Below are positions 659 through 59,700 of a DNA stretch of 64,000 nucleotides, piece by piece. The notes beneath the pieces are model-generated. The model worked only from the letters and a program-made list of their open reading frames with translations, did no database searches and was not told where the DNA came from. The translations under genes and the position numbers were made by a program. How positions within the stretch are numbered: position 1 is the first letter of the stretch; each line of letters begins with the position of its first letter. This DNA comes from Anadara kagoshimensis (lineage: Eukaryota; Mollusca; Bivalvia; Arcoida; Arcidae): contig CM037868.1 in the NCBI GenBank assembly GCA_021292105.1, forward strand, positions 579,549 to 643,548, written 5' to 3'.

Positions 659-759
659 TTTTCATGCTCTAAAATTATGTTTATCGTCATGTTAATTAAA
701 TGTTCTAAACATAGTTCAATTTGGGCATTTTAAATGTTTAATCTTAACATTTGTTTCAG

Positions 760-7915
<7,156 letters not shown>

Positions 7916-8935: not shown

Positions 8936-10440
8936 TAAATAATGAGCCGGTATTAACAGAAGGTATGGATGGCATGTCGCTGTTCAACAGGCCAAATTCG
9001 TATTTTAATTTGGTAAAATGCGGTATTACTATCGTTGGAACATGGAGTCAAATTTTATAATGTTTTTTTAATTTACTAAATCAGGTTAGCGTAACGAACA
9101 AGTCAAAAACCATCTATATATATGTTGAGACATATATTGTTGGCTATCATTAAAAACATTTTTTTCATAATACATAATTGTCTAAATTTAAAGTAATGAT
9201 ATAGAACAGTAGAGTCTAAACAGCGGAACTAAACACTGATAGAATATAGATGTTTGTCTCTGTAACAGTTGTAGAGCCACTGTATTCACTTGAAATGTTA
9301 CAGTCCGTATTTACCCAAACTGTTAGTTACATTCCAATGTTTATATGTGATAATACAAGTCGAATGCATTGTAATATTTAACACACACACACACACACAT
9401 ACGCGTATTTACCTGAAACCCACTACACATGATTTTACACCTGAAACCAACTACACCAGGTTATACATACCCAAAGAGTATTTTATTGTTATTTTTAGAT
9501 TAAAGTTGAAGTAAACTTTGCATTTATCGGTTGGAAGTTCAGAAATCATGAATATTTAGAGTTAGACTTTTGACAATGAATCCACTACATCATTCCATGA
9601 ACGCACACATTCTATCCACTACACTAATTGTATCATGTTACACACATTCTAGTCACTACACATGACGTAACCAAGTTACACACATGAAAGCCGCTACACA
9701 AAAATACATGCCTATAGAGCATTAAAATTAAATGAAGAAGTTATCTTGTGTTGTACCGATTGGGGTTAAAAAAATGTGTTTCAAATAAATGCTGTGCATG
9801 TGTTTCAATTCAATATTTTCGCCTTTGGACCGGATGTTCATAACTAAACCATTGACAATTGTTATTAATTATTGGCTTCATCAATATCTCATTATATCAA
9901 TAAATTACAAACACACCACTCCAAACCTATGCACATTTTGGTACGGTACACATCCTCTCATGTTGGTTTACATTTGTGCCAAGTTTGATCAAAATCCATC
10001 TATAGACATGAAAGATATGGAGCGGACACGATATTGGGACAGACAGGGCGATCCTATATATCCCCTGAAACTGTTTCAGGGTATAAAAACCGTGTGTACC
10101 TCTATTTATGGGAATACATCAGGGTCTTGACCCCATTTTATCTTTTCATATATTCCACACAAGTCTTATGCATGTGACCTTGATCTTTGTGCCCCATGAT
10201 CTTAATCTGTGTCGAAATGGTTGGTATATCAACGCCTGCAATATTCTAATATACATGCCTGTATTTCAGATAATTAACCATTTCCGTATTCTTATGCATG
10301 TGTTATTGACTTTCAAAACTCATCACCTTGAACTATACAGCATATCATTATTCCAGTCTACATGACTTAACATTTTCTGTATTACAAAATATTAAAAAAA
10401 ATGGTAGTAAGTCTTATTATTCAGCTTTTGTAATAGCTCT
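8936..10440. other. Intergenic, no gene seen
   Basis: AT-rich. A (CA)10 tract lies near 9380-9400. Degenerate CACTACACATGA-type repeats run over 9400-9710. Near 9950-10080 a fragment reading GTGCCAAGTTTGATC...ATATTGGGACAGACAGG resembles 6780-6860. No ORF here has recognisable domains. Confidence 0.6.
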
Positions 10441-15820: not shown

Positions 15821-17201
15821 AGAGTACCTGTAACAATTTTTTATTTTTACATATGTTATTCTTCATACTGAAATATGACACAATGCGAAAAGTTTATAAA
15901 AATCCATGCCGAAATTAGGGAGATATTGGCGAGTTTGTAATACACCTCCCGTTAATCCAAATAAAAAAGCTTTGTTTTGGTGACCCCGTGCAGTGACGTC
16001 ATTTAAGTAAGAAGACCCCACACAATACTATTTATATACATGAACCAGCTAAAAATTATTTTTATATTTCGCGATAAATTCATTTGATAAAGTGGAATTT
16101 ACATCCGACCGACACCTACCAATAATTAAGCAAATTATTATTAGTCCACCTTGATAAAAATTTGTTTATTAGACACGTACCTTTAATCAACAGGATGTGT
16201 TCTTACAATTAACAAAATTGATTGACAGGTGTACGGATAGAGGAATTTTATGACACCTGTAAATATACTATCTGAATCGTTTGATGTTGTCTTGGATTTA
16301 GAATTTCACACAGTTAAACTAATTGTGAAAAGATAATTATGTATAAAAAAAACTAGAGTTATGGGAGTATGAATAGACTGATAACTGACAATATTATCTA
16401 ATTTTGAAAAATAACATTTTAAATAAATTTTTACCACCGGTCATTTAATTTTTAATGTTTAATAAATAAATAAATAATTTTTAAATAGATAAATAAATAA
16501 ATAATTTTTAAATAAATAAATAAATAATGGTACATGATAAGCAGGTTCAGGATCGTATAAACTTGATAGGTTTTGATGTTTGATTAGTATTGTTTAAACG
16601 CTGGCAACCAGACAGGTAATTTTAAATGTATGAATTTAATTACAGCATTTACTTTTATCAGGTTTCTAGTTTTTGTTTTCTTTATGATCGGGAAAATTTG
16701 GCCTTAGAAATGCATTATTTGAAATCTGGGGTCTTTTCGGACTTAAGATTGTCAACATCCATTTATTTATTTATTAGAATTATATACCGAACTTTTGTCA
16801 ATAAGTAAACTTAGTAAAAAAATATTTAATTGCGTTGTCGACTGCTTGTGTTGTATTTGAAGCCTGTGCCACGTTTCACCATGTTTGGTTGAAAATTTTG
16901 CAGGGTGTGCTGTCTGTAGCAGGTTCTGTATGATTTAATATTAAAATTTAATCTATTTTAAAATTTTAACAAGTGACAATTAATTTTCATAAATTGTCAA
17001 CATCACATTTATTTATTTATTTATTTATTAACATTAGATACTGAACATTTGTAAATAAGTTAACTTAGTAAAAATTCAAGGTTTTCAAACCACTATAACT
17101 TTCTTATTCGGTCATCACTTTTGATGCGGTTTTCGATATTGTGATATATAAATGATATTTAACAAATATATGAAATAAAAAATTTTCGTTACAGGTACTC
17201 C
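15821..17201. mobile_element. TTAA-flanked TIR element, ~1.4 kb, non-coding
   Basis: Starts AGAGTACCTGTAACAATTTT directly after TTAA (15817-15820). Ends with the inverted copy AAATTTTCGTTACAGGTACTC at 17181-17200. Related right ends at 17270-17290 and 17690-17710 are followed by TTTAA. A TTAA target with 14-bp TIRs recalls piggyBac-type insertion, but the terminal bases are not the usual piggyBac ones and no transposase is present. Interior: (AAAT)n tracts at 16455-16530 and 17005-17030. It lies just past the stop codon of the SET/recombinase gene. Confidence 0.6.
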
Positions 17202-17516
17202 ATAATAATCACTAAACTAGCACTTCTTTAATGACCTTCGTCTTGAAGTTATCAAATTTTTAACCGCATATTACAGGTACTCTTTAATAATCACTAAACT
17301 AGCACTTCTTTAATGACCTTCGTCTTGAAGTTATCAAATTTTTAACCGCATATTACAGGTACTCTTTAATAATCACTAAACTAGCACTTCTTTAATGACC
17401 TTCGTCTTGAAGTTATCAAATTTTTAACCGCATATTACAGGTACTCTTTAATAATCACTAAACTAGCACTTCTTTAATGACCTTCGTCTTGAAGTTATCA
17501 AATTTTTAACCGTATA
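17189..17516 (-). repeat. 4 x 82-bp array copied from the end of gene 2
   Basis: Four nearly identical 82-bp units start at 17189, 17271, 17353 and 17435. Read on the minus strand, each holds the last coding part of the terminal exon of gene 2 (through ...KKC and its TAG), some 3' UTR, and the end of the adjoining TTAA element. A fifth, true copy is the gene end itself at 17695-17775. Confidence 0.9.
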
Positions 17517-17684
17517 TTTTATGTTCTTCCATGTAAATCTTGACAAACAGGATTGGTTTTTGATGGCATTTAAACATTCTAGTTTACATGGGACCTTCTC
17601 CAAATTGATGTTCTTCCTAAACTGGCACTCTAAAGCCAAATATATGAAATAAAAATTTTTTGTTACAGGTACTCTTTAATAATC
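17512..17684 (-). pseudogene. Partial duplicate of the gene 2 terminal exon
   Basis: 17516-17634 repeats 17769-17893, the middle of the terminal exon, almost base for base. It ends abruptly and is followed by the same AAATATATGAAATAAAAATT sequence that ends the TTAA element at 17160-17185. It is a downstream duplication lacking the splice acceptor. Confidence 0.85.
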
Positions 17685-17718
17685 ACCATATTACAGGTAC
17701 TCTTTAATAATCACTAAA

Positions 17719-17933
17719 CTAGCACTTCTTTATTGACCTTCGTCTTGAAGTTATTAAATTTTTAACGGCATATTTTATGTTCTTCCATGTGAATCTTGAC
17801 AAACAGGATTGGTTTTTGATGGCATTTAAACATTCTAGTTTACATGGGACCTTCTCCAAATTGATGTTCTTCCTAAACTGGCACTCTAAAGCCATTTTTT
17901 CCTTCTTGTTCCATTTATGCCTGGTCGTTGCAG
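17719..17933 (-). CDS. Gene 2 terminal exon: SANT/Myb-like tail
   Basis: The acceptor GCTATGTTTCAG on the minus strand precedes the exon; TAG is at 17721-17719. It enters with two bases of an Ala codon, as the phase-1 upstream exon requires. Features: RHKWNKKEKMALECQF, then CLNAI, then RFTWKNIKYAVKNLI and a basic tail. The spaced Trp residues suggest a small helical Myb/SANT-type DNA-binding module. This is a resemblance, not a proven homology. Confidence 0.8.
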
Positions 17934-20900
17934 CTGAAACATAGCAGATGATGAGTAAATTGAACCAAACAAACCATATAAATAAAATACATATTTGCAT
18001 CATCAATGTTAACTGTAAATTTAACTGTATTCAAGACAGAATTGCAATAATTATCTGGATAAGAATGACAGCATGATTAAATTAAACTGGTCCTTGTTGT
18101 GAAACATACATTGTATTTAAGTTCATTGATGATTGATCATTATTGCCGAGTTTGTCACTATTTTCCAATCTTCAGTCAGAAATGGTCCAGGAATGACCAC
18201 TATTTTTTAGTGTTGCCCTAAGCAAATATGAATTAGAACCATTTCTTGAGAGCCAAAAACGCCATCCGCCCGACCTCAACATTGACGTCTTGATTAATTA
18301 ATCCCTAATACCCTTAATCACTTGACCACAGTGCACTTTTACCAAACAAAACACTATAATTAAGCTTTAAAGTTTATATAAAAGACATACATACCTTTAG
18401 CACAGTTCTTTTTCACAGCTACTGTTCTTTTTTTGGACACAGTTTTTGGGGTTTCTGAAATTACAGGAATAGTATTTATATTAGACTAATACTTTTCTAC
18501 CTACTAAAGTGACAAAAGTTTTCATCATAACTAGTCACTATAACACAAGTTCCTATTAAAAGATTCCATCGCCCCTTCCCGATAGGCTAAAGTACTTTGC
18601 ATGTATGTTGCCAGGTGGTATGAAATGAGACAAAACCGTGAACGTTACATGCATATCAAGAATTAGACATTTAAGTTGGTGCCTTTCTTTCCAAACTATT
18701 TGGTGAAATTATGAATTACAATTAATGAAAATTTTCATTCTTTACCAAAGTTCACAAGAATTTATTTAAAATCACAATTTTAATCTTTGGAATACAAATG
18801 TCCCTGGATGGACGTATGAAAACTATGCAAGCAGTGAAATTCATAAATTTAGAATTATGGTCTTTCCTATCAAATAAAACAAAATTTCTATGTTTAATCT
18901 TGCACAGCAAAATGTGCCCCAGGAGGTAAATTGGCACTTTTCAGTACAACAATATGGACAATCCATTACTTTCATACATTTGAGTCGAGTATAGGGTGTT
19001 ATTTTATTTGAAATTTACATTTTACATACAGCTTACATCTTCTTTCAGGTGTACTAAAAATGCATTTAAATGTCCAATTCATATCAAGACTTTTACAAAT
19101 GACACTAAATAGGTTTTCAAAGACAGATACATGTTCATGCATATGACAGAATTTTGGATATGTAGAAAGCCTTTAAAATAAAACTAGAACTGTCTCTGAA
19201 AGAGACTAATACCCTCAATTGTTGGTAGAGAATTTTGATCAGTGCATTCTTATGATGCTTGTCATCTATGCATAATTTCTGAAAAATTGGATCATAATAA
19301 TATTATTAATTTAACCTTTTGATAAATTACATGTATGGCCAAAATGAATGTTTGAAAACTTCGAAGTCTGGAAATGGCTAACATCTGTGCATATTTTCAA
19401 AAAATTGGTTCATATGTAACTGAATTAAACTCCGGAAAAATTGTGTCTATGGATGGACAGACAGACAGATGGACAGACATTCTGGTATACCCCACCTAAC
19501 TTTGTTGTGAAGGTATAGCTATAAAACAAAAAGAGTTTAATTACCTGCAAGTGCTTCATTTTCATCACTTTCACTAAAGTCCATTACATCTGCAACATCT
19601 CTTTCAATGACTGTTAAATCCTCTGTTTCAGATTCACTTTCACTTTCAAGTATTTCTGCAACAAAAGAATAAACTAAACCTGACCTTTTTTATATGTAAT
19701 TGGTTTTGCTGTTATCTAAAACATGGAACAAAACATCAACTTTTACAATGTTTAGATTCAATATTTCTAGGAAGAACAGTATTCTTAGTTTCTTATCATA
19801 TCCAACAAACATACCACTCACAATTTCTGAGCAAATTTCCAATAATGATATGAAATAATGGCAATTATATCTTATCTTATCTTATCTTATCTATATTTGA
19901 CACCTTTTAATAGGCCATAGGCCTCTCTGGTGCATTTTAATAATTGTCAGCCAGATCACACTAGCCTACACTTATGTGACCATGACTGGCAGTGTGTATT
20001 GTGCATATGTCTGCTTTGTACTAGTGCGCACTCAGGGCAACTTTTTAGGTGCTAGCTCACCGAGACGACAATTGCAGAGGTTGCAGCCTCACCGGTCCAT
20101 TATCCTGACACCGGATAAGTCAGCAGCAATGTGAAATGAAGTAACTTGCTTAAGGTCACAACATGCCCCGACAGGATTCGAACCCACGACCCTTCGATCT
20201 GGAGTCTGACGCTCTACCAACTGAGCTACATGCTTCCACAATATATAATTATATATATTTGAACATATGAATGCACAATATTATAACAATATGCCAAAGA
20301 GACCTATGAGACTTCAATGCAATATTTGTCACCAGCTATTATATAAATCTTTGTATACAAATTGTGGTGTGCAATATGTAGACCTAGAGGCAATGTACAA
20401 TATACATGTACATAATTCAAGTGCAAGTCACAATTGATAATTATGCCCGTTTTAGATTACAAATAATTTCATGAATTGCATTACCAGATTTGTTTATAAA
20501 AAATGCATGAATGACCATATGCATACTTGCAAATCTTAAGTTTTACATACCTTTCTCTGGAACAAATTCAATTTCATCAAAATCTTTGCCTTTGTACTTT
20601 GCAATGGTGCCATTGTTAATGCTGTGCAAAATCTTTGTAACTTTGGCTGCTTGTGATGCATTTTCAGGCAGGCGATAAAATTCTCTGTGAACCCTGATGT
20701 CGTGGCCTTGAAATGTAGCTAAAATATCTTGAGAATTTTCACTCAAATTAAGAACCTGTGCTAATGTTGCCAACTGTTTCCTCAATTTTGTGGATGTTAA
20801 CGATGAAGGATGTTCCACCCCTGCCTCCTTTGACAATTTCCTAAGACAATCAGAACCTCTGTATGGTTTTGTGAATTCTCCTGGCCTTGCAAATAAGTAT

Positions 20901-23900
20901 GGCTGTTTGACATTTGCTTTGTTCCTATTATCAATCAATACTTCAATTTGTTGTCTCATCTTGTCAGTTAGAAGAACTGGTACCTTCCTGCCTCTTTTTC
21001 CTCTGATTTCAACTCTTGTATGCGATGTGCAGAGACGTTTTTCAAATTCTGTCAGTGTACTCATCACTACAGGATCAGGTCTACCACTGCCATTTTTAAT
21101 GGCATCATTAAATCCTTCAAGCAACATTCTTTCTGCTTCGCCACTTCTTCTCCTATTAAATAAAATGACTTGTGTCAGGAGAACTTGAGCTAGTTTAGAG
21201 TATAAATCAGGGTTGTTTCCAATCTTCTTGCAAAGACTGTTTGCGGTAGATTCCAAGTACTTGTTCAGCTTGACAACATCATCTGTCAATGGGAGCATTT
21301 GAGTTTTATTGTACTTCTGATTATCAAGCGAGTTTAAGGCTACAGAAGAAACATCATCCTTCCAATCACTTGTATACAGGCACAGAAAATCTTCAGCTTC
21401 TTTCTGTTTACATTTGTTGTTTTCTTTTATTGCATCTGAACGTTTATATCGAGCACATTTTTCAGGCTCTGTCCTATTTTTAGGGCTAGAGATGGAGTTT
21501 TAAACATCTGACTCTGTTCATCATACCCAGCTACAATTTTATACATTTTATTAATACATCCCAGTTGCAGCTTTTAAGCACATCATCAACTGACTTTACA
21601 TTAGATACGGATTTGCAGCAAACAACAAGTCGACCAAGTTCACGTAGTTTCTGAGATATGTACTGTATCTTATGCTCTTGTGGGCCATGTTTCTTGAGTA
21701 ATCTTTCTCCAAAGTTTATAATGCGTTTGTCTTGTTCAACAGTAAGTTTGACATCATCATTTTGCATTTTCAAAAAGACTTTGTCTGCTAGTATTTTACT
21801 ACTGCTGTTACATGGAAGCAATGAACGGCCATTTTTAATATGTTCTCTATCACTGTCTTTTGGATCTTTAGCAACACAGGAAGACTGGTGTTTCCACAAG
21901 TCACTTTTTTTGTACAATGCTTTGCAATGAAAGCAAGGAACAAAATCTGTTACTTTCAACTATCATCATTTTGCCTGTATTTGGGAATGATCATTCCATG
22001 CCCCTTTTCTATTACAGCATAATTATGAGCAAAGTCTCCACGGTTAACAAGTTCTTCCCAGCATTTTCTTCGGTTCATACTTCTCTTTGGCAGAGCAAGA
22101 ATTTTAGCCACTTCAATTTCATTTTGGTGCTTTAATGATAAATGTCTTGATATGTTTGGCAACACTATTCCACAAAAAACACATGCATGGCATTTATTGG
22201 AAAGATTTCCTTTAGAATTTTTATTGGCTGCCTGAATAACAATTTTCTTCTCCTGACTGAGCACTGGAAAAATAGCACTTGTTTTATCTTCATTTTCACT
22301 ATCCGATACATGTACATTTTTGTTGTGAATTGCTGGAATTCAAAATTAAACCATAATGTATATATAGAAAACACAAATGTATTGTTTAAATATAGTCAAA
22401 AAGTTGATATATAAATGGAATAACAATTTCAAAGGTAATAATTTACTGTTCATGTCCCCAAAACATTACTCTTATACATGCACGTACTTGATATTTACTA
22501 TATACAACATGTCTTATGTGAATCAATAAGTAACTCAGTGCTTGGTCTGTTATTGGAAGATCATGGGTTCAAAACCTGACTGAAGTCTGACCTAAGACTG
22601 GAAAGTGGGTAGTGACTGTTCTTTTGCCAAGCACTCAGCTTTACGAAAAGAAAGTCAGTTCTTTCGTATGGAAACTTACAAAAATGAGGTCCTGTGTCAG
22701 GGTAGATTTGGCATAAAAAGAACCCTGCTGTGTAATGTCATCAGCGCAATGCACAGGCAAAATTTCTGCACCTTCGTCTATAACTGGTGATGTCTCAATA
22801 TAAGTGAAATATTCTTGACTAGGATGTTAAACACCATTACTCCAGTCCACTCTTACATGAATCATGGCAATCATTACAACCCATGTTACTGTATGATGTC
22901 CAATGTCTGTATTTATAATGTTGTATGCAAGGTCTTCACACACAGTATGCGTGTGATATCTGAAATACTTCATATGCTTCATGTCAGCATACTATGTGTG
23001 TGTAATATGAATCAAGGGCACTACACTTTCAGTCCACTACATGTGTTTGGACTTTACAAACCATTGAATGTAGGCAATGTGGATCACAAAAATGCAGGAT
23101 AATAGTATCAGTGTGAGTACATTTGTATTCATGTTACAAGTTCCAAGTTGTACAACATTTATAGCGGGAATTATTACTGGTACAGCAGAAAAGGTCACAG
23201 TAATAACCTATATGTACATTATATGCAAATTCTTGTATATCAACATTTTATATCAATATATAAAGTTAAATACCAATAAAAATCACAAACGTCAATTGTT
23301 TTTAGAAAAGATGCAGGAATTTAGTAGAATAAGAAAGCAGGTCACAGATCACTGCCCTATACATAGTTTGTAGTGCAATGCATTTATATCAATCTAATGC
23401 AAAATGTTTCTAATGCAAGTCAAATATTTTTTTAAACTTTTAAGAAAAATCAACAAAACACGAAAAGAAGTCAATGTCTATGATCTAACTTTAAAGAAAA
23501 CTGAGTTAATTTAATCTAAAACAATTATTATGATGATTGTCACAATACTTTGATATAAGAACAGATTATGATAGTCTACAGAGGTTGCTCCAAATACATA
23601 ATTATAATAGTTTCTGATAGTACCATATGAGAGGCATGTACCTTTATATTAACACAAAATATAAAATGCTTTCTTAGCATAAAACTACATCAAATTTCCT
23701 TAACAGTAAAGGTAAAGGTGAAAAGACAAAGGTTTTAACTTATGGTTAAAAATACACTGTAGTAGAAAATTTGCATCTGAAAAACGTGTACATGGCAATC
23801 AAATGTAACCAAGAATACAAAACACTACAATACAATATTCAAAAACAAAGAAAATACAAACACATATAAGGACCAATGATTATATAAGCCCCGACTTTGA

Positions 23901-24444
23901 ACAGCATAGTAGTAAATGTCCAGCAGTGTGGTATAGTACTATTGGAGGCCTTAAGCCATCCTACTATTATAACAACCAGTGGTCCACAAATACACACATT
24001 TAAAATTAAAAATAAACCTTACCTTTTTCAAAAGAACAACCGTTATTTGTTGATGACTGAGTTGGATAGTGTTTATTGTCATCATCATCATCATCATCAT
24101 CACACATATCCTCTTTCTGAATGAGATCTGGAAGTAAAGTAGAAACATATATTGGGTATTAAAATATGCAAATTTAAGTTTACAATTGACAATCAACACT
24201 TAATTTCACAATATTGTATGATTTGACAAGTAGCTTATAGCAAGCAAGTCTCTGGTTCCTACATCTTTAAAAGTGGATGTTAATGTCAACAGTTACAACA
24301 AGTGTATTATAAATTTAACCAAGTAAGGAAATCTTCATATACACATATATTTCAAAATCTTTCTAGATCTCTTACAATCTTACCTTTCTCAGAAGAACTA
24401 TCATCATCCGTTGATGATTCAGTTGATAATTCAGTTGGACAATA

Positions 24445-24476
<32 letters not shown>

Positions 24477-26306
24477 GAAGTCCATCCTCTCTCTGAATAA
24501 GATCTGAAAGTAAAGCAGAAAAAATTCATACAAACTCTTAAACTAAATCACAATAACAGTTACAATTACAATGACAGTAACTTCTTTGCTTTATATTTGT
24601 AAGAATCTTTAGTGAGGTTTACTTCATTGTTATTTGGAATTTGGAACACAGAAACGTGAAAAACAAGAACACTATTTTTCTGCCTGTGATTTACGTGTAT
24701 GTACACAAATTATGATAAATTGTCATTTGCGATATCACAATACATATTTGTCCACATCATCATCTCTAATGAATAATGCATCATAGCTATGTGTATTTAC
24801 TTATGCACTGGGTTGCATGTGTGTCATAGAAAGTAGCGAGTTGCATGTGTGTGCATGCATTATGCATCATTGCTAGGTACTTATGTACTGGGTTGCATGT
24901 GTGTCATAGAAAGAAGTGAGTTGCATGTGTGTGCATGCATTATTGCTAGGTAATTATGTACTGGGTTGCATGCGTGTCATAGAAAGTAGCGAGTTGCATG
25001 TGTGTGCATGCATTATGCATCATTGCTAGGTACTTATGTACTTGGTTGCATGTGTGTTCAAGAAAGTAGTTGAATTGAATGTGTGTGCATGAATTATTCA
25101 TCATGGCTATGTGTACTTACTTCTGTGTCTCACAGAAAGTAGTGAATTGCATGTGTGTGTATAGATAATGCCTCGTGACTATTTGTGTTTACTTATGTAC
25201 TGAGTTGCATATATGTGTGTGCATGGATTACACATTATGCTATGTGCATTTACTGATATACATTGGACACCATATCTAAATTTTTTTACACTCTTACCTT
25301 TCTCGAAGGAACTATCATCATCAGTTAATTTAGTTGATACTTTATTTGAACGATCATGAATATTGCCATCAGTATCATCATGCCCATCCTCTTTCTGATT
25401 AAGAACTGGAAGTAAAGCAGAAAATTTGCATAAAAAATAGGAAATTAAATCACAATAAGATATATATATATATATATACATACAGTATAACCTGTGTATA
25501 AAGACCATCCCTGGGACTGAGCAAAAGTGGACTTAATAGACAGGTGGACTTTATATAGAGGGTCACTTTATGAACGAGTAAACATGTATTGTTGATACTG
25601 GTATACAAATAAATGAAAATAATATCTATAATACCTATTAAAATACCCTTTTGTTTAATTTTGTTAAAATTATTTTTATGATATTTAAAAAAAAAAGATT
25701 TATTATCAATCATAGAAGATATTTGAAAAGTGCATTATAATTTTAATGGGCTGTACATCTGATCACATGGTAACAGTTTATCAGTATACACCTGACTACT
25801 GTCTTTGTTTTCTTAGGAAACAGGGTGTCACTAATTAAAACAATAGGTATAGAAAACATACTGCCCAAAATAACAAAGACTGTTTCTAAATGCTGATCTA
25901 ATGGCTTCAGTCATTGACATGAGTATAAGGACTTCACATTTTTCCCCTCAAATTTTTACTTATAATAACTCATCTATACTCTTTGCAACAAAAATTTGTA
26001 AAACTTATACAATGATAATTGATTTATAATAATTATATATTTCTAATCTTCAAGCATTAAGAATATAATAATAACTTGGTAAAAAAATTACACTAAAATT
26101 ATAATATGAAAAATAACTTTTAAAAAAGTTGATTGAAATATTGGACTTTATAGACAGGTTGAGAAGTCATTTGGGACTAATAAGGGTGGACTCTATTCAC
26201 ATTAGACAGGTGGACTTTATATACAGGGTCATATAGTAAAATCCATTGGGGATACTTCAGACCGGTTGCTATAGACAGGTGGACTCTATAGCATGTTATA
26301 CTGTAG

Positions 26307-26345
<39 letters not shown>

Positions 26346-28934
26346 GTTCAAATAATATGAATAAAGAACAATTGGGAAACAACTCTACTGGCCTTTATAA
26401 GTAGGTGGCCCTTACATAGAAGTGGTCTTTAGGGCAGGTTGGACTGTATATATATATATATATGATTTCTAAAATGTAATCTAATGACACTTTTTTGATA
26501 CTGTAATTTTAAACACCTATCTGTGACTTAACTGCTTAGGGCTAACTGAATTTGAACCTAAAATTCCGGACATGATAGGAATCCATTATTAGTGATTACA
26601 TTTCTCTAACAGCAAATGAAAATGAAAGCATCATAAGCATTTGGCATTTTGAATCTTATCATTTTTATCTTACCCCCCTCCATTTCATCTTCGCTCTCTG
26701 ATGATGAATCATCATATTCGCTGTCTGATGATGAATAACCACATTCGCTCTCTGATGATGAATCATATTCGCTCTCTGATGATGAATCATATTCGCTCTT
26801 TGATGATGAAACATCACATTTATCATTGGATGAATTTGGATTACTTTTTGTAGCACTCACTGCTTTCTTTGGTTGATTTAGTTCAAATGGATCTGAATCT
26901 GAATCTGCAAAAAATATTCATAAAATACTAAATAATGAGGAATGACTAAAACCTTAATACCATAGCCAATAAGATTTTTAGTACTATATTTCGTCACTTA
27001 TAACCAACAGTTTTAGACCAAAAATAATTTTTGAAAGGGGTCTACAAGAAAATTAATCTTGGCCATGTCTGTCATGTATACTGAACATAGGCCACAATCG
27101 TCATCAGAAATAATAGATCAGAGTGGTGGGTTTGCCCTAGGTTGTGTTATAACCAAAAAATATGGTATATGATTATTTAAATACTAGAAATCTTAGTAGC
27201 TACAATACAAAAGTTTTGTTATCTTTACTAAACAATCATCAAAATGAAAATAAAAAACAAAACAAAAAACAATATATATATATATTTAACAATGTTTTGA
27301 CAGGACCACTAAAATTCATCTTACCAACTGAGAAAAGCCTGATGAATAGGTTGGCTGAATATTAAAAATGGTATAACTAAAGTTGTGTACATGTAGCTGA
27401 GCTATATGTGGTTTGACAATGTCATTGACCATTCTGATTATATTCAGAGGCTAATAAAATACACGATATCTAGAGATAGACTGATGGCATTTCACACCAG
27501 AGTCAAGATTTTTACTGATGGTCAATTTTGGGATAGAGGAAGAAATGGGTGTACCCAGAGAAAACCACTGAACTTGATTGAGCAAGTTGACAGATTTTTT
27601 CACACTAGGATCTACACAAGGATTATTTGACATATTGTACAATCAGAAAGATTCCTGAAACCATGTTTGGTATGTTTGGAATAAATAGTGGACTAAATAT
27701 AAAGCACTAGTATGAGACTGAAAAAAATTCTTAATTTTCAATTCACCAAGATACAAGTAAATGATACCCACATATTAATAAAGAATTGTTTAGTGACAAT
27801 TATCAATTAAGTATATAGTACATTTGGTCTGCTCCGCTAAATTAAGAAAATAACCTACGATCAATGAAAAACATAACATGAACTAAAACAGCATGCTTAA
27901 GATTAAGATAACTATAAACAAAATGAACATATGCAAGTCTCATCACCAAATTTGGCTCATGGGCAAACTTTAACAATTTTTTTTAAATAACAAAATAAAC
28001 AGCAATAAACAAATTCACCAACATAGAACAATGTAGAAGCTAGTTTTCACTCAATTTACTGATTTATTGTTCGCCAGCACTAAATATTACTTTACTCTAT
28101 TCAATCCAATTCAATAATAGATACAACTTTGACTATACATAATATGTATCTGTAATGTTTTGATTGGCTCTGATATGAATATGAACTAAAGAAACATCAA
28201 GCACTGCTTGCTAACGAAAAAGTCTTAAAAAAATAATAAGAATTCAAGTGAAAACTGTACATTTACATTGCTATTGACCAATAACAAAAACTGTTACCCG
28301 AATCAGATTCCACTGGAATTTTATTGCAAGATTTGTTCTGCAAATGTGTAATTTTAAAATTTAAATTTATTGTTCAGACTTTTTATGAGAAATTGCTTGA
28401 CAATGTTATGTATAGATCCAAATTTAGCACATTCCTTGTTTTTTTTTCATGTATATTTTCTTACCAATATTTTAAAAGCAAAAGATGATGTTCAGGAAGC
28501 ACTGCTTTGCCTAGTTACTCAGACAAAAGGTTACCAAGTAGTCTTATTCAAATTCCTAGAGCAATTGGTAAGATGTACACCTCCAATCTAAGCATTAATT
28601 CCTCATTTTATTTTCATATCTTCCCCCCTCCCCCATATATTCTACTATCAATTTATAAAAAGTTTAGAGGACACTTATTTTTTTAGATGACCTGTGAAAC
28701 ACATAAACTTACCAGATTCCTCCATTCTAAGTTTTTGTCAGCATCGCCATAATCATAACGTATTTCTTGACCTTTAGGAATAGTTTTGGTCGCATACAGA
28801 CAGAGTCTTGGATAGTTGCTGTTAAAGACTTTAAGCTTCATTTTTGAGTTGCATTTTGCACTTTTAACTGCTGAATCATTCACATAGCGACACAACCTGT
28901 TATTTGTGTCAGTGGCATCAATACTGACAAAGAC

Positions 28935-28968
<34 letters not shown>

Positions 28969-30581
28969 TGTAATTATTATTATTTTTATAATAAAAAAAA
29001 CATTACCATACACAAAATTAAACATTAATTCCAATTTTTTATATTTACTACATGTACATGTATATTGATAATAAGATTGAAAACTGGTGCAAAAGAGAAA
29101 ATGTGGAATATTTTCTTGGACAATCTTCTAATGACCAGAGAAATGATAATGCCTTTCCTAGATGAATATAAATACATGTACAACCAGTGCTAGAAAGTAC
29201 TGAAATCTGCAAAACTGAAATAAAACATATGTATGGAGCATCTGAACATGAATTTTGGTGTAAAGATCATTACTTCAATATTTTTTTAATTTGTTTTAAA
29301 TCTGACAGAGACCATAGCAATAGAAACAATTATCAGGAACTGCATGTAGTTCTGTGATTGTTCCTTGGTCATGACCTATCTAAAACAATACTTTTCTCAA
29401 TTAAGGCCTTAATTTTAGTGATTTCTTCAATCTATTAATATCTACATTTTTAAAAATAATTCAAATTTGCATAAACTTGATAAGAATTATATTGAAAATA
29501 AACTCCCAATTTGCATATGGATCTGCAAATTCATCAGCGTAACACACTTTTTCAATTATTATTATTCTTCACTTTTTTTAAAAATGTAAATCTATATTAT
29601 ATATACTTACCAACATGTCTTCTCTCTATATCTAAAATAATACATGTAACATCTGTTGTTTTTCCGTTTTTTCTCTCTCTCAACTGCTTCTTCCAAACTT
29701 ATTCGTTCACCGACATATTCTAACAGGAAATCACCCTTATAAAATGTCTTGGTAGCAAAAACCCCAAACCCTACCAAAATAAATCAAACAGTCTGAATAT
29801 ATTTGTGTGAAAAATGGTTCATACAAGTTTTGGGTAAAAAAAATCAAGGAATTTAAAGTGGTTTTTCAGACTACTGTCTAGTGTAAGGATTTTCAAGGTC
29901 TTTATAAAATAATAAACAGAAAAACACTGTAATATCATTTACAATATACCTTTAATTTTTCAATTAATCCAGATAGTTAAGTTGCTGTTCAAGCCTTTAA
30001 AGATTTTGTTGAGAATTTAATGTATCCAAGACAGGCAAGTCAGGTTCCATTTCTATACCGTATTTTAGGGCTCACACTGCAAATGGCACAAATTGTGACA
30101 TTTTTTTTTAAATAAATTATGACAAAAAATCATCTTTAAATAATAAAATGCCCTAGAAGACTTAAAATTTCTACTTTTGTTTAATATTTGCAACTATTTT
30201 TTTTATGTCAGCGTGTACCCTGTATTTAATCTATCTGGTTTTAAATAACAGATTTGGCATTTGTGTACACAAATAACTCCTAATTGTTTCAATATTAATC
30301 CATGAAATGATTGTTAGTAGTGCTCATTTTTCAGACATTTCAAGTGGAACTTATCAGATTATTATCCCTTCCAATCATAATGTACCCATTAATATGTATT
30401 TTGACGTATGTAAAACATGATGAGAACTTTAGCAGTTTTAAAATTGGTACAAATGTGCAATTCAATTTGTTTCACTTCTCTTACCAATGTACTGATTGAT
30501 AAACATTTTGCAGAAGCCATCCTGGTCCAACCCACTTTCACACCAATAATGGTCACTACTGAGACTATCAATTCTAGGCAC
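17719..30581 (-). CDS. SET-domain / tyrosine-recombinase-like fusion gene (12 exons in phase)
   Basis: Minus-strand exons in coding order: 30581-30485, 29770-29611, 28923-28713, 28337-28298, 26904-26674, 25405-25298, 24503-24384, 24127-24023, 22333-20551, 19655-19545, 18454-18395, 17933-17719. All splice phases agree, and from the fourth exon on every junction is phase 1. The product is about 1080 residues: a KMT5A-like SET domain, an acidic Ser/Asp region, two zinc-finger-like motifs, a tyrosine-recombinase core, a basic linker and a SANT/Myb-like tail. The SET domain predicts lysine methylation; the recombinase core predicts DNA strand transfer or, if repurposed, DNA binding. The big exon has four one-base breaks, so it is either a recent pseudogene or carries assembly errors. 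I recall similar uncharacterised proteins in fish genomes. N-terminal exons remain uncertain. Confidence 0.82.
18395..18454 (-). CDS. Gene 2 exon: basic linker
   Basis: 60 bases, phase 1 to phase 1. Acceptor TAATTTCAG, donor GTATGT. Encodes TPKTVSKKRTVAVKKNCAK, a lysine-rich stretch that could serve as a nuclear localisation signal. Confidence 0.78.
18752..19180. other. Intron of gene 2, no feature recognised
   Basis: Part of the intron between 18454 and 19545. No repeat or RNA could be named. Confidence 0.4.
19183..19520 (+). repeat. Interspersed repeat ending in (GACA)n-like tract
   Basis: Begins ACTAGAACTGTCTCTGAAAG and ends ATGGACAGACAGACAGATGG. The layout is shared with 53800-54030 (inverted; contains TCTGTCCGTCC and AGAGACAGTTCTTGTAC) and more loosely with 38970-39240 (GGACGGACGGACAC). 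Confidence 0.55.
19545..19655 (-). CDS. Gene 2 exon: acidic segment after the recombinase core
   Basis: 111 bases, phase 1 to phase 1. Acceptor TTTTGTTGCAG, donor GTAATT. Encodes ILESESESETEDLTVIERD and then FSESDENEALA, a strongly acidic, low-complexity region. Confidence 0.8.
19868..20237 (-). mobile_element. tRNA-derived SINE, full length (intron)
   Basis: On the minus strand it begins with a tRNA-like head: GTAGCTCAGTTGGTAGAGCG (box A) and GGGTTCGAATCC (box B). A ~250-bp body follows, with an (AAGAT)n tail at 19866-19890. The anticodon stem does not pair, so it is not a tRNA gene. The body shares GCGCACTCAGGGC and TGCTAGCTCACC with the SINEs at 36858 and 46749. Confidence 0.82.
20551..22333 (-). 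CDS. Gene 2 large exon: zinc fingers and tyrosine-recombinase core, four frame breaks
   Basis: Minus strand, acceptor GAATTCCAG, donor GTATGT. The N-terminal part has CVFC...H..H and CFHC...H...C metal-binding-like motifs. The C-terminal 250 residues form a tyrosine-recombinase catalytic core: box I FNRRRSGE (Arg at 21148-21146), a basic strand RGKRGRKVPVLL, box II TKLR (Arg at 20782-20780, with Thr where His is usual), GHDIRVHREFY with His at 20704-20702 and the Tyr nucleophile at 20677-20675. His to Tyr is nine residues, as in lambda integrase. Frame breaks: near 22317-22322 (one extra A in A6), 21957-21959, 21533-21535 and 21453-21455 (one base missing each). Correcting them gives a phase 1 to phase 1 exon of 594 codons, matching its neighbours. 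No other nonsense codon is seen. Confidence 0.85.
22519..22850 (+). mobile_element. tRNA-derived SINE (intron of gene 2)
   Basis: A decayed tRNA-like head (GTAACTCAGTGCTTGG... and ATGGGTTCAAAACC) is followed by the body GTGGGTAGTGACTGTTCTT, AAGAACCCTGCTG and TATAAGTGAAATATTCTTGA. The same body is found at 30868, 41762, 51985 and 63836. Confidence 0.75.
22851..23900. other. Intron sequence, nothing recognised
   Basis: Part of the intron between exons 24023-24127 and 20551-22333. Short open frames here show no homology or splice support. Confidence 0.45.
24023..24127 (-). CDS. Gene 2 acidic cassette exon 3
   Basis: 105 bases, phase 1 to phase 1. Acceptor ACTTCCAG, donor GTAAGG. Encodes LIQKEDMC, a run of Asp, then HYPTQSSTNNGCSFEK. 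Same plan as the exons at 24384 and 25298, so it arose by exon duplication. Confidence 0.8.
24384..24503 (-). CDS. Gene 2 acidic cassette exon 2
   Basis: 120 bases, phase 1 to phase 1. Encodes LIQREDGLH, eight Asp codons (GAT), EYCPTELSTESSTDDDSSSE, then EK. Acceptor TTACTTTCAG, donor GTAAGA. Confidence 0.82.
24781..25260 (+). repeat. TG-rich tandem repeat, ~85-bp units (intron)
   Basis: About six units built on TTATGTACTGGGTTGCATGT, CATAGAAAGTAG and GTGTGTGCATGCATTATGC; later units are more diverged. A lone related segment lies at 31497-31610 in an upstream intron of the same gene. Confidence 0.8.
25298..25405 (-). CDS. Gene 2 acidic cassette exon 1
   Basis: 108 bases, phase 1 to phase 1. 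Encodes LNQKEDGHDDTDGNIHDRSN, then KVSTKLTDDDSSFEK. It lacks the long Asp run of its two paralogues but keeps the QKEDG start and the DDDSS-EK end. Acceptor TTACTTCCAG, donor GTAAGA. Confidence 0.82.
25491..26305. mobile_element. TIR element in (TA)n context (intron)
   Basis: 815 bp beginning TACAGTATAACCTGTGTATA and ending CATGTTATACTGTA, an inverted pair. Internal AGACAGGTGGACTTTATAT recurs near both ends. Flanked by (TA)n on both sides. No ORF. Confidence 0.6.
26341..26448 (-). mobile_element. Partial family B TIR element (intron)
   Basis: Reverse-oriented relative of 5521-5692. It holds ACTGGCCTTTATAAGTAGG and ends GCAGGTTGGACTGTA, next to (TA)n tracts. Confidence 0.5.
26674..26904 (-). 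CDS. Gene 2 exon: Ser/Asp/Glu-rich repeat region
   Basis: 231 bases, phase 1 to phase 1. Acceptor ATTTTTTGCAG, donor GTAAGA after a G run. Encodes DSDPFELNQPKKAVSATKSN, then four or five copies of SEYDSSSE-type units and EDEMEG. Acidic, probably disordered. The TCATCATATTCGCTCTCTGA DNA repeat underlies the protein repeat. Confidence 0.85.
28298..28337 (-). CDS. Gene 2 micro-exon (40 nt)
   Basis: Acceptor ACACATTTGCAG and donor GTAACA bound exactly 40 bases, read NKSCNKIPVESDS plus one base. It enters in phase 0 after 28713 and leaves in phase 1, as exon 26904 needs. Without it the two neighbours do not join in frame, which is the main support. Confidence 0.72.
28713..28923 (-). CDS. Gene 2 exon: C-terminal half of SET domain
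   Basis: 211 bases. Acceptor TTTGTCAG, donor GTAAGT. Encodes IDATDTNNRLCRYVNDSA, KMKLKVFNSNYPRLCLYATK and KGQEIRYDYGDADKN. This matches the KMT5A (SET8) pattern: DAT...N.LGR..NHS, then GEEL.YDYGD. The His of NHS is Asp here; the Tyr-Asp-Tyr-Gly core is kept. Confidence 0.9.
28934..28970. repeat. (AAT)n microsatellite
   Basis: About eleven AAT units on the plus strand, directly upstream (minus-strand sense) of the acceptor of exon 28923-28713, where they form part of the pyrimidine-side tract. Confidence 0.9.
29611..29770 (-). CDS. Gene 2 exon: N-terminal half of SET domain
   Basis: 160 bases entering with two bases and leaving with two. Acceptor TTTTGGTAG, donor GTAAGT. Encodes FGVFATKTFYKGDFLLEYVG and later RCYMYYFRYREKTC. 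GVFAT...GDFLLEY-GE is the standard SET entry motif that lines the S-adenosylmethionine site. Confidence 0.9.
30485..30581 (-). CDS. Gene 2 exon before the SET domain
   Basis: 97 bases, phase 0 to phase 1. Acceptor TGATTGTAG, donor GTAAGA. Encodes VPRIDSLSSDHYWCESGLDQ, then DGFCKMFINQYIG, which runs straight into the SET domain start. Confidence 0.75.
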
Positions 30582-30867: not shown

Positions 30868-31186
30868 TGATTGATTGATTAATTAATGGTGTTTAACGTC
30901 CCAGTCAAGAATATTTCACTCATATCAAAGGTTGCCAGCTATAGGCGAAGTGCAGAAATTTTGCCTGTTCGTTGTGCTGATGGCATTATACAGCAGGGTT
31001 CTTTATCGTGCCGAGCCTACCAAGATCCGAAAGAACCGTGACTTTCATTTCGTATTGCTGAGTGCTTGGCGAAAGAACAGTCACTACCCACTTTTAAGTC
31101 TTGGATCAGACGTGGCCCGGGTTCGAACCCACGACCTTCCACGTACGGAGCGAGCACTTTACCAACTTAGCTACCGCAGTGGTCTG
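30868..31186 (-). mobile_element. tRNA-derived SINE (intron)
   Basis: On the minus strand the head reads GGTAGCTAAGTTGGTAAAGT and GGGTTCGAACCC. The body has AAGAACCCTGCTGTATAATG and ends GGGACGTTAAACACCATTAA. Tail (AATC)n. Confidence 0.85.
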
Positions 31187-34532: not shown

Positions 34533-34774
34533 GAGTCCTTGCCGAGTAAAGTGTGTAACTGTACAGATCACTGCGGGGATTGCGTGTGAAATTCAACGGG
34601 GTTACACCGGAAACCCAAACATGTAAAAATTTTGTATTGTCTGAATAGGATACGGTCTAAATAGCATTTTCAGACGGATTTTCAACCCAACACTCAAGTG
34701 TATGCGCTGGGTTGAAAATATGGAGTGACTTGCACGTGTGTATTCATTTGAGTGTAGTGGGAAGAAGGTATATA

Positions 34775-34775
<1 letters not shown>

Positions 34776-34815
<40 letters not shown>
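34776..34815. repeat. (CA)n microsatellite
   Basis: About 20 CA dinucleotides. Confidence 0.95.
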
Positions 34816-53700: not shown

Positions 53701-56700
53701 ATTTGCTAAAAATAATATACTGATTATATTGTTGTTATTCTGTATACGACGTCATTAAATTTTCGTTATTATACTCTCTCAAACTAGTTATATCCCCAAA
53801 ACTAATTTGAGGTGAGTATATAAAGGATTCGCCATGTCTGTCCGTCCATCCATTCGTCCGCATGTCTGTCTGTCTGTGTAAAATCGGGTCCGAGTCATAT
53901 CTCATAATTGCTTTGAATGACTTTCATAAAAATTCACATCCATAATCTTGATGGCCCAAAGGTCTGTTATGACCTTTATTAAAGGTCTTACCGGAAAAAA
54001 TATTTGGCTCTCAAGAGACAGTTCTTGTACTACTTGATGCCGATATATTTTTGACATTGTGTTCACATCATTCTATATCACGTCAAGGTATTTCCGTATT
54101 ATATTTATATGACGTCACTATATTTTCGTATTTATGCACACGACATCATTAAATTTCCGTTGTTTTATTTGTCGTCAATATATTTTCGTATTTCTGAGCA
54201 CGACACCATTGATGTTCATTATATTTTCATAACTGTGTAGATGACGTCATTATATAAACGTTATATTAGTTAGTGATGTGAAATTGTTCATGTGTCTTTT
54301 GAGACACTTGTACTGAAAGTTGTTTTGGTTGGATCAACTGTAAAAGAAAACTCTTTTGATGTTTTTATATATATTTATTCATTGCGTTTTCAGTCGCAAT
54401 ATCTTGATGATTTAATTCTTATTTTTGCAGCCACAGTGTCCTGATTCTGATGCCTCTGCATTGTCGAATTGGTTATTTTTATGGTTTACACCGTAAGTTT
54501 GATTTTTATTCTGTACCAAACATTTCTCAAAAGCTAAGGTATACTCCCTCATGCAAAGTATGTACTTAGCTTAATTTGGTCAAATTTATATTGGTCCTTT
54601 CGGTAGCTTTTCAACATCTTCAAAATAAATTTGGTTTCATAATTTTGGTCCAAGCACTACTGGTGAGGAATTGTATTCCGAAACGGCCGTCTAGTGCTGT
54701 AAACTTAAAACTGGTATAATATGTAATTATTTATTGATACTATAAAAACAGTTCTTAATATTTAACGTTACATTTTGTTTTAAAAATTTGCTACTAGTAA
54801 AAATAAATCCTCGAAAACTAAGGTATACTCCCTCATGCAAAGTATTTCCTTGGCTAAATTTGATAAAATACATTTTGGTCCTTGGGGTATTTTGAACACC
54901 TTTAAAACAATTTTGGTTTCATAAATTTGGTCCAAGCACTACTGATGATAAATTTAAAATATCGAAACGACCGTCTAGTGCTGTAAAATAAAACTGGTAT
55001 AATATGGCATGATTTGTAAGTTACATGACATCTATGTCTCTGGTACCACCAAAACATATAGATGTTTTATAAAACTCGGTGTTACTAGTATTTTAATTTC
55101 TAAAATCAAATTCAATTCTCAATAGTATAATTATATGAACATAAAAATTTTATATTTTAAAACTAATGACGTTATCAGGTTAACTGCTACTATAAATAGA
55201 TTGATAATTTATATTAATATTCTCTGGATTTTAAAGAGCACAGGCCAATGGTCATCGTTTCTAAAATATATTTACTGTTTATAAAAATAGATTAATAGAT
55301 TTATAAAAAAATATAATTTTTCTTTTATATTTTCTTGCTTGATATAAATAAATTTACGGTTTACACAGGAACTTAAGATTGCTAAACTGAAATCCTAGTA
55401 TTTGATATGCTGGGACAAGCTCACGTTTAACAAACATTTCTTTAGTTGTGTACTATTTATTTGAATTTCAGGGTTGTTTTACAGTCGTATAAAAAAACAA
55501 TAGGTCGGGATGATCTTTGGGAACAAACAGAGAGATTAAAATGTGAAAATGTTGTTCCTGAATTTTTGAAAGCATATCGTCAAGAAAAGAAAGGGTAACA
55601 TTTTTATAACTGACATAGACTATGGTTTTTAGACCAGGTTATTCATCCCCTGAGCCTCTCTACAATATAATCGGAAGTGCGACACAACCCCCCCTCTCTC
55701 TCTCTTTCTCTCTCTTTCTCTCAACCGATTGTTATTTTTTGCCTTCATTGATCAAACCTTTCCTTTGCATGTTAATCTTGAGTAAAATGTACATGACCCA
55801 GTTTTCTACATTATACAGAGCTTTTGAAAAAATAAATTACCACATATGTCATTGTGCAATTTCAAATTCTACATTATACAAAGCTTGTGCAAGTATGCTA
55901 TTGTGGAATTTCAAATTTTATATTATATTAAGCTTTTGCAAGTATGCCATTGTGCAATTTCAAATTCTATATTATACAAAGCTTTTGCAAGTATGCCATT
56001 GTTTAATTTCAAATTCTATGTTATACAAAACTTTTGCAAGTATGCCATTGTACAATTTCAAATTCTACATTATACAAAGCTTTTGCAAGTATGCCATTAT
56101 GCAATTTCAAATTCTGCATTATACAAAGCTTTTGCAAGTATGTCATTGTTCAATTTCAAATTCTATATTATACAAAGCTTAAGCAAGTATGCCATTGTAC
56201 AATTTCAAATTCTACATTATACAAAGCTTTTGCAAGTATGTCATTGTACAATTTCAAATTCTACATTATACAAAGCTTTTGCAAGTATGCCATTGTACAA
56301 TTTCAAATTCTATATTATACAAAGTTTTTGCAAGTATGTCATTGTGCAATTTCAAATTCTACAAAGCTTTTGCAAGTTTGTCATTGTGCAATTTCAAATT
56401 TTATATTATACAAAGCTTTTGCAAGTATGTCATTGTGCAATTAAAAAACACCACGTGAAATGTTGTAATTTGTCGACAATCAAGGAATTGACGTTTCCAA
56501 GTATGCTATTGTGGAATTTCAAATTTTATATTATATTAAGCTTTTGCAAGTATGCCATTGTGCAATTTCAAATTCTATGTTATACAAAGCTTTTGCAAGT
56601 ATGCCATTGTGCAATTTCAAATTGTACATTATACAAAGCTTTTGCAAGTATGCCATTGTGCAATTTCAAATTCTACATTATACAAAGCTTTTGCAAGTAT

Positions 56701-59700
56701 GCTATTGTGCAATTTCAAATTCTACAAAGCTTTAGCAAGCATGTCATTGTGCAATTTCAAATTCTATATTATACAAAGCTTTTGCAAGTATGTCATTGTG
56801 CAATTAAAAAACACCCCGTGAAATGTTGTAATTTGTCGACAATCAAGGAAACTGACGTTTCCATGTCTGAATTTTTTAATTGAAATCGCCGCAAATTCAC
56901 CTTATTCACATAAAGAGACTCACTGATCTAATAATTGTATAAGGTTTTGGTGGACTTGACCGAGTCGTTGTGGTTTAGATTATCATTTCATGCCCTTAGT
57001 AGAACTGTAAAAAGTCCAGTAATGTCGTAATCATTCGAATGAGACTCAACACTGAGGCCCCCTGTCTCAATGGACGCTACACATCTCCGTTATGTTTGAA
57101 AAAGAGTAGATCACATATTGCCGCTATATAGGACGCTTGCAACAAGAAGTGGCTAAATTGACTGAGTAAAAATGCGATTTTCTTTGAAACGTATCTTGCA
57201 CGTTGTTTGTTCTTGCTTTACATCGTTCTATACTACTATAATTTCAGAAATCGCGTGGTGAAGGATACAAAAAATAGAAAAAATGGAATCCAAAATGGTT
57301 TTGTGTATACTGAAGAAAGTTTCTTATTGTCCAGCACAGAGTCTAAATACGACGGAGAAACAACTACACATAAGTCTAAAAAGAAACCCTCCTTATATAT
57401 GACAATACTGAAGAAATACTGGCACCACTGGCTGTTAGGGGCAACACTAAATACATTCAGTATGCTCGGATCTTTAATACAACCATTGGTTCTCAGGTAC
57501 GTGTAATAAAAAAGCATACCGATTCACGTCCGAATCACAATCCAAACGCAAAGTAAAAAAAAAAAACTGACAAGTCAGGTTAGACACAAGAACTTCCATC
57601 AGGAAAATGAGACCAGGTGCTCCGTATGGGTAAGCACCTCCTGTTTAGGTAGCTACACCCGTCATGTGTTTAATCAAAATTGTGTGAAAGGAACATGGGA
57701 CTTCGGAATTATTATTAAACTTGTGATGTTTTAATGTTTTATTAAACTCTGTTTAAAAACACAAGACTAATATTTTTAACAAATTAAGTATCTTGAAATG
57801 GCTTGTTATTACTTCCATTGCCGTGTAAAGCGAAGTTAATAACACGTTAAAGCTCGTTATGATTAGTTTGTTTTGCACGGCAATGAAAATTGACATTTTA
57901 TCGTCATTGAGGACTTTATGTGTCTATAGGCTACTAAGTATAAGCAATATGACACGCACCATGTTATTCTCGGATGCCAAACCTCAGTGCGGGGTGTTTT
58001 GTTTGAAATTCATCACATACGCATCCTTTTGAAAGCAAAGACATTTTATTTCCCCCAGACAATGTATAGCCGAGGATCAGGATAAATATTTTGAAGAATG
58101 CAATGCCAGTGTGCAGATATGTCAGATGGTTGATTCTGAATTGGATCTTGATGATAATGACAGTGGTAGGCCTGCCAATGATAATTTATTAAAATTAGCA
58201 TACTATATTCAAGTCTAATGTTCACCCGTACCGCTTGTTTACCTTATCAAAATGTCCCTGATCAGCCAAACAGCTACCACCGGTGACAGAATCCCTCATC
58301 TCGCATCCATTCCATAGGCGGTTAAACATTGAATCATCCAAGAAAACATTAATTCCATGTCAATAGTTGATTTAGGGGTTTGTTTAACACACTGTTCATT
58401 CAATCAATATAGTTTTTCTCATGTTATGGGTAAAAAATCAAAATGTAAACACGCCTGTCCTACAAACGTTTGGCCGTCACGTATGACGTTGTACAAAGTG
58501 TTGTTTGTTTTCATGATTGCGAGACATAATATAATCCCTTTTTGTCAATGAATTAAAATGTAACATAATTTATATGTTGACTGAAAATAACTAAAAAATG
58601 AATAAAAATATATAAATTCAAACCTATTTCAGCTTTTTTATCGGATATTTTATCGTTTCATAAAGATGTCATTTATTGTATCACTACGCAGTTCAGCCTT
58701 GTAACGTCGATTTTCTGAAAATCAGCTGATCAGTTCAGAAATGTAGGTCAGCTTTAAAAAATGTTAAATTTTGGGTTTGTAATTATGAGAATTGAATTGC
58801 ACTTTTTACGTTGTTATCGGGGTGTAACAACGTGAAAATTATCATAAATTGTGTAAAACCGCGTAGCGCTACGCGGTTTTACACAATTTGTGATAATTTT
58901 CACGTTGTTACACCCCGATAACAACGTAAAAAGTGCAATTCAATTCTTAAATAACTTCAATTGTCATGCAAAGTACATCATTAATAGCGCGTTATAGCGC
59001 TTTTTTCGTTATTCGGTCAAAGTCAGTGGAAGTTTTAGTGCTAAGAATGCCATCTCTAGATAGTTTAATGGCTATATTTACATTTTGTATTGTTGACCAT
59101 CATATTTTGTTTTTTAATCCTGAAATAAATAAATTGAAAATACTTCGTGTACGACATGCATTTCCCATCTCTGGAACAGCCGATCAACGACGTCACACGT
59201 ATATATATGTATATATTAATTTTATTGTTATTGTTATTATGATTATTTATTTATTTATTTATTTATTTGTTTATTTATTTATATTTTCGACAGCGGCCTT
59301 ATTGATTACATTGAGAGAGGAAAATCTCGAGGAGATCCGGTATGGCACGGTTATGCGTTAGCTTTTGCAATGCCTCTTTTGGGAGAAATTGATTCTTTAT
59401 TTTATACGAGCAGTATGCATATACTAATGAGTTTGGGTCTTCAAATAAAAAGTGCTCTAATTGGCGCCATCTACGAAAAGGTAAAGTAAATACTGTAAAG
59501 TATTTTCGCGGTGTTCTAAATTTCACTTATTTGGCGGTCTTTTGTTTTGTGCGAAAATTAATACCAAGCGGAAACTATAAAATGATAAATTGAGTTATAT
59601 TGCATATTTAAAAAAAGCGAAAATTTAACTTCGTGGATATGTCTAAATGACCTATACCGCGAAAGTAAATACATGCGAAATTAATTTTGTTTACACTACA

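Follow-up and report, generated by a model that had tools for sequence, protein, structure and literature searches.

A probable 25-kb tyrosine-recombinase transposon with a KMT5A-like SET domain in AC-repeat DNA of the bivalve Anadara kagoshimensis

Large transposons that carry a tyrosine recombinase (YR) are best known from fungi. The nearest parallels to the element described here are the endogenous nimaviruses of crustaceans and the animal Cryptons with their abundant non-autonomous copies, as two reports describe them (PMC10871703, PMC3212892). We analysed a 64,000-nucleotide stretch of the Anadara kagoshimensis genome (GenBank assembly GCA_021292105.1, contig CM037868.1, positions 579,549 to 643,548; hereafter the window) in which an unusual multi-exon gene places a SET domain upstream of a YR-like exon. 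From comparison with other copies in the same genome, this gene is most probably part of a ~25-kb DNA transposon that lies in AC-repeat DNA and exists in dozens of copies, and not a fused host gene.

The element shares features with several described systems. Cryptons are animal DNA transposons with a YR, their non-autonomous copies outnumber the autonomous ones, and the animal groups CryptonA and CryptonI are reported to have no terminal repeats and no C-terminal domain (PMC3212892). In contrast, the element described here has inverted arms, a tail exon, a SET domain, introns, a length of 25 kb and AC-tract flanks, and a Pfam scan returned no match at E up to 1 to DUF3504, the animal Crypton-derived YR. 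The Starships of fungi are likewise large eukaryotic elements with a YR; they occupy other hosts, and no cargo gene was recognised here in the frames scanned. The same scan gave no match at E up to 1 to DUF3435, the Starship captain domain. On this evidence the element is assigned neither to the Cryptons nor to the Starships. Endogenous nimaviruses bear YRs, are inserted in simple repeats and in some cases have multi-exon YR genes, as reported (PMC10871703), whereas the element has no recognised viral gene, sits in a different repeat and measures 25 kb. SETMAR (Metnase) also joins a SET domain to a transposon enzyme. It is described as a single gene of the host whose transposase is of the mariner DDE type, whereas here a mobile unit carries a KMT5A-type SET domain with a YR. 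Finally, the SET domain differs from that of KMT5A/SET8 in having VND for INH and in being borne by a mobile element. No counterpart of the whole element was recognised among the papers listed by searches of the open-access literature.

DNA searches of the window's own genome located the gene within a repeat with shared ends (Table 1). The arms lie inverted just inside the AC tracts, and CCCACTACAC, common to both, has a single occurrence on each strand of the 64-kb window, one at either end of the element. Six aligned copies stop at window positions 34803-34813 on the right, and matches to other copies start at 9374-9385 on the left (39 candidates scored, window element included). In the 1.115-Gb genome we identified 48 occurrences of the left-end pattern and 47 of the right-end pattern; reversed-pattern controls gave 0. 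A right end on the same strand and in the same order follows 44 of the 48 left ends at a spacing of 15.7-29.3 kb (35 at 15.7-20.0 kb and nine at 25.2-29.3 kb). Eight of these 44 paired elements contain a YR match, every one of them among the nine long elements, and 36 contain none. Loosening the left-end pattern added 11 places to the first 48 (letters seen for two of the 11), 10 of which have a SET match at the expected place and orientation (coordinates compared by eye). Young, nearly identical copies lie on many contigs, and several families have diverged. We also observed two adjoining left-end fragments at C12:14199259-14210830, with 94% identity to the window over ~4.8 kb and without a paired right end.

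AC tracts abut the element in all 12 left and all 11 right flanks that were read. When the window element is removed, its joined flanks align without interruption (1-610, 88% identity) to the 640 bases of C12:2218551-2219190, 1.6 Mb from the window element. This segment appears to be a paralogous empty site. ABC-transporter exons occur on both sides of the element (window 696-1085, 4319-4594 and 60319-60786, plus strand; PF00664, PF00005 and PF00664, respectively), which suggests a tandem ABC gene region. Because these exons flank the element on both sides, the C12 segment is probably a paralogue of the duplicated ABC gene region that was never hit by the element. An earlier, sequence-only reading of the locus had offered a large intron-bearing mobile gene family as one of two possibilities, and this is borne out by the shared exact ends, the AC flanks, the empty paralogous site, the young copies and the diverged families. 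At a separate locus (C10, L033, near 35939428-35939503), the right end of a copy and, after it, the left end (CATACTCGCATTCCCCTGAAACCCACTACA) belonging to a second family have pattern starts 46 bp apart; these ends of the two families are neighbours within a single AC tract, which looks as though it had served twice.

The SET part of the gene (30581-30485, 29770-29611 and 28923-28713, spliced) matches PF00856 with E 1.3e-18. Among solved structures, its best relatives are KMT5A/SET8 chains (E 8.5e-25), and the first chain otherwise named follows at 1.1e-13; the KMT5A-like domain recognised from sequence alone is thus well founded. The position and phase of the SET intron are the same in family L060. 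We identified a SET exon upstream of the YR match, on the same strand and within 40 kb, at no fewer than 80 of 109 YR matches (69 in a first listing and 11 added from 16 SET rows chosen among 150). The 109 are those used of 125 YR rows, the 16 dropped rows being further pieces of places already counted. The chance expectation is ~0.003 per YR match. The association is seen from 100% down to 26% YR identity, and members of a family have similar spacing. At one YR match (C9:28451752) the SET exon is found only downstream. Because the arrangement recurs at dozens of places, it is not due to chance.

The second half of the gene includes a region, 20543-21499, that matches Phage_integrase (PF00589) with E 8.9e-7 and 29.3 bits (cut-off 27.1), in agreement with the tyrosine-recombinase region read from the sequence. 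Across three families, an R (NRRRSGEAE), a K (GKRGRK), an R (TSTKLRKQ) and an H and Y (GHDIRVHREFY) are invariant, and we presume from the general YR pattern that these residues have a catalytic role. Two zinc-finger-like CxxC...H motifs, also noted in the sequence-only reading, are invariant in the three aligned families (Pfam zf-C2H2_3rep E 0.0041, under the cut-off). Searches of solved structures with the YR returned only chance cytochrome P450 matches, and no integrase family was found for it in PHROGs. In the window copy, exon 8 has three frame breaks in the interval from about 21,960 to 21,470 and 12 in-frame stops; the window copy therefore cannot encode the whole recombinase. The exon is open over 599 amino acids in the C1, C5, C15 and C17 copies.

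The window family is not among the 148 listed PF00589 places in its own genome (148 scored of 603 candidates; lowest listed 33.1 bits). These 148 places all score above the window family for Phage_integrase, and several are near-identical sets of 402- or 419-amino-acid open frames. YR elements beyond this family are common in the Anadara kagoshimensis genome.

Eleven exons were found on the minus strand by comparing eight copies for exons 1-7 and seven copies for exons 9-11, and their frames are open in the compared copies except in exon 8. The sequence-only reading had proposed twelve exons with fully consistent phases. Phases agree at nine of the 10 junctions, and every junction from exon 4 onward is phase 1; the misfit is between exons 3 and 4, where exon 3 ends in phase 0 and exon 4 requires phase 1. 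When the gap was scanned for an exon that could bridge it, a single weak candidate of 52 nt came up. The exon 4 acceptor aligns as tg in four copies, where a 3-base gap shifts the border. The acidic cassettes read from the sequence are present (26904-26674, 25405-25298, 24503-24384 and 24127-24023). Their lengths differ between copies always by multiples of three, which we do not count as proof of coding because the runs are trinucleotide or 24-base repeats. The proposed SANT/Myb-like tail did not hold up: Pfam gives neither a SANT nor a Myb match with E of 1 or less.

Table 1. Coordinates of the element, its ends and its exons in the window
Feature	Position	Strand	Basis
Whole element (25.4 kb)	~9381..34806	gene on minus strand	shared ends of copies; borders approximate inside AC tracts
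AC tract, left border	9381..9398		sequence
AC-rich tract, right border	34775..34815		tandem repeat finder, 34774-34815
Left arm TATTTACCTGAAACCCACTACAC, inverted partner of right arm	9406..9428	+	18/23 positions equal
Right arm, inward reading TATATACCTTCTTCCCACTACAC	34752..34774	-	arm comparison
Exon 1, upstream of SET	30485..30581	-	AG/GT borders; open in 8/8 copies
Exon 2, SET first half	29611..29770	-	PF00856 after splicing; same protein in 8/8 copies
Exon 3, SET second half (VNDS, YDYG)	28713..28923	-	PF00856 E 7.2e-7 alone; KMT5A alignment
Exon 4, acidic/serine cassette, phase misfit with exon 3	26674..26904	-	copy comparison
Exon 5, acidic cassette, phase 1-1	25298..25405	-	copy comparison
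Exon 6, acidic cassette, phase 1-1	24384..24503	-	copy comparison
Exon 7, acidic cassette, phase 1-1	24023..24127	-	copy comparison
Exon 8, two zinc-finger-like motifs and tyrosine-recombinase core	20551..22332	-	PF00589; three frame breaks in window copy
Exon 9, acidic, phase 1-1	19545..19655	-	7/8 copies; partial copy without the exon
Exon 10, basic, phase 1-1	18395..18454	-	7/8 copies
Exon 11, tail with stop codon	17719..17933	-	7/8 copies

Part of the last exon occurs twice in tandem (17431-17638 and 17687-17894, 98%), adjoining four 82-base repeats (region 17189-17894). A tRNA-like stretch (20169-20230, minus strand; Rfam tRNA, 31.4 bits) and inverted repeat stretches (22585-22839 and 30884-31111, 89-93% complementary) resemble tRNA-derived short repeats inserted in introns. 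Outside the element, a 351-amino-acid open frame of a repeated ~20-amino-acid unit without a Pfam match (55828-56883, plus strand) is probably a minisatellite.

A single transcript over all exons is plausible. Because the junction between SET and the cassettes is out of phase, a single SET-recombinase protein is unproven. The one gene and one protein of the sequence-only reading are therefore upheld in part: the arrangement recurs, and against it stand the misfit junction and the broken YR exon of the window copy. It is possible, though we lean the other way, that the transposon carries two genes, one for the KMT5A-like SET part (exons 1-3, read through to a stop close to 28683) and another for the recombinase, running from exon 4 to the last exon. 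The phase misfit, with no good bridging exon found in the gap scan, points in this direction, as does SET exon 3 in YR-less copies, which among the matches listed is open at 28 places (84-94% protein identity) and has stops at seven others. Two genes fit less well with the shared strand and ordered spacing across many families, and with the phase 1 of every later junction. YR-less copies also retain the exon 8 start together with the last exon: at 13 of 19 places scored, the equivalent of window position 22206 is joined to the equivalent of 17929.

Between families, the ratio of nonsynonymous to synonymous differences per site (pN/pS) is 0.27 for SET (bootstrap 0.19-0.38) and 0.29-0.34 for exon 8; synonymous sites are close to saturation. 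By this measure, both SET and YR are under purifying selection between families. That SET is a passenger without catalytic function seems unlikely to us. Such a passenger would be consistent with the cofactor motif, which departs from the INHS of KMT5A in all three families read (VNDS in the window family, VNDA in L060 and VNDS in L061), and with the YDNG found in place of YDYG in one partial copy. Against it, pN/pS is low, the association with YR persists down to 26% YR identity, and VND is the form in all three families.

Several copies are young. Between the C17 and C5 copies there are 12 differences in 24,783 bases, and between the window and C3 copies 40 in 24,894. Three frame breaks in exon 8 are common to the window and C8 copies; the C3 copy has the first of them but not the other two, and C10 is broken elsewhere. 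Because shared frame breaks sit at different places, copies with a broken recombinase exon, including that of the window, may have been moved in trans by others. Between the window and C17 copies, substitutions number 16 in 3194 exon bases and 104 in 9102 bases outside exons (p 0.001), and comparisons with C5, C15 and C10 are similar.

Taken together, these comparisons make it likely that the element works like a YR DNA transposon in which a KMT5A-like SET domain is conserved. Several observations weigh against this reading. The YR assignment is modest: with the intact exon taken whole, the score of 26.7 bits is just under the PF00589 cut-off, the second family scores 19.9 bits, and one of three family proteins has a PF00589 match with E of 0.01 or less. 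TSTKLRKQ shows no evident counterpart of the first His that is usual in the YR signature. The AlphaFold check proposed by the sequence-only reading was uninformative (single-sequence model of the YR, pLDDT 37). A profile comparison with the lambda, P2 and HP1 integrases and XerD, made with too few sequences, gave a probability of 0.7% against 0.0-0.2% in 20 column shuffles. SET may not be universal in YR elements; among the matches listed, 29 YR matches lack SET and six of these have open frames of 585-752 amino acids. Between the window and C3 copies, exon and non-exon rates of substitution do not differ (3/3194 and 10/9952). Finally, an AC tract at the site before insertion is inferred, the empty site having been located with its letters unread.

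For the YR transposon with a conserved SET domain, the following mechanism of insertion is supported in outline. The element's own tyrosine recombinase would move the ~25-kb unit between (AC)n tracts. Guided by its zinc-finger-like motifs, the recombinase would bind the inverted arms of ~23 bp that adjoin the AC tracts and excise the element, probably as a circle with an arm-AC-arm junction. An arm-spacer-arm order is the layout of many YR core sites, and inverted arms joined end to end would form it. The excised element would then recombine with another AC tract. The KMT5A-like SET domain may be a working part that shares the recombinase's protein or comes from a neighbouring gene of the element. 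It would most likely methylate chromatin (or the recombinase) at the donor or target, and this methylation could allow integration or expression to escape silencing.

That these copies derive from part of an endogenous large DNA virus, or of a YR retroelement (DIRS, Ngaro or PAT), is highly improbable. Endogenous nimaviruses are reported to enter simple repeats by YRs (PMC10871703). Against such an origin, no relative was found in viral contigs or prokaryote genomes by scans with few, short peptide patterns, which could miss distant relatives. None of 10 further reading frames scanned in the element matches a Pfam family at cut-off, and the best reverse-transcriptase-related match (E 0.091) is under the cut-off. 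Neither a reverse transcriptase nor a DDE transposase was found at the Pfam cut-off in 18 reading frames scanned, part of the element's frames. Capture of a recombinase by a host chromatin gene, the other possibility raised from sequence alone, would make this a gene at work for the host; that reading is hardly tenable and was rejected. Introns and a KMT5A-like domain would be expected of a host gene, but the whole unit is repeated in many copies with exact ends, an apparently empty paralogous site exists, and the recombinase exon of the window copy is broken.

The element described here points to an abundant, very recently active and diversified YR group in an animal genome, inserted in simple repeats, in which a SET domain is kept by selection. 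There is perhaps a little less than an even chance that it represents the founding group of a distinct superfamily, one of large intron-rich animal transposons aimed at AC microsatellites, with a KMT5A-related methyltransferase as the core, long-conserved partner of the tyrosine recombinase and with the writing of their own chromatin mark for integration or evasion of silencing. In animal annotations, arrays of genes labelled 'KMT5A-like' or 'phage-integrase' may be transposons. If SET acts in movement, the group would let the idea that a transposon can modify its own chromatin be put to the test.

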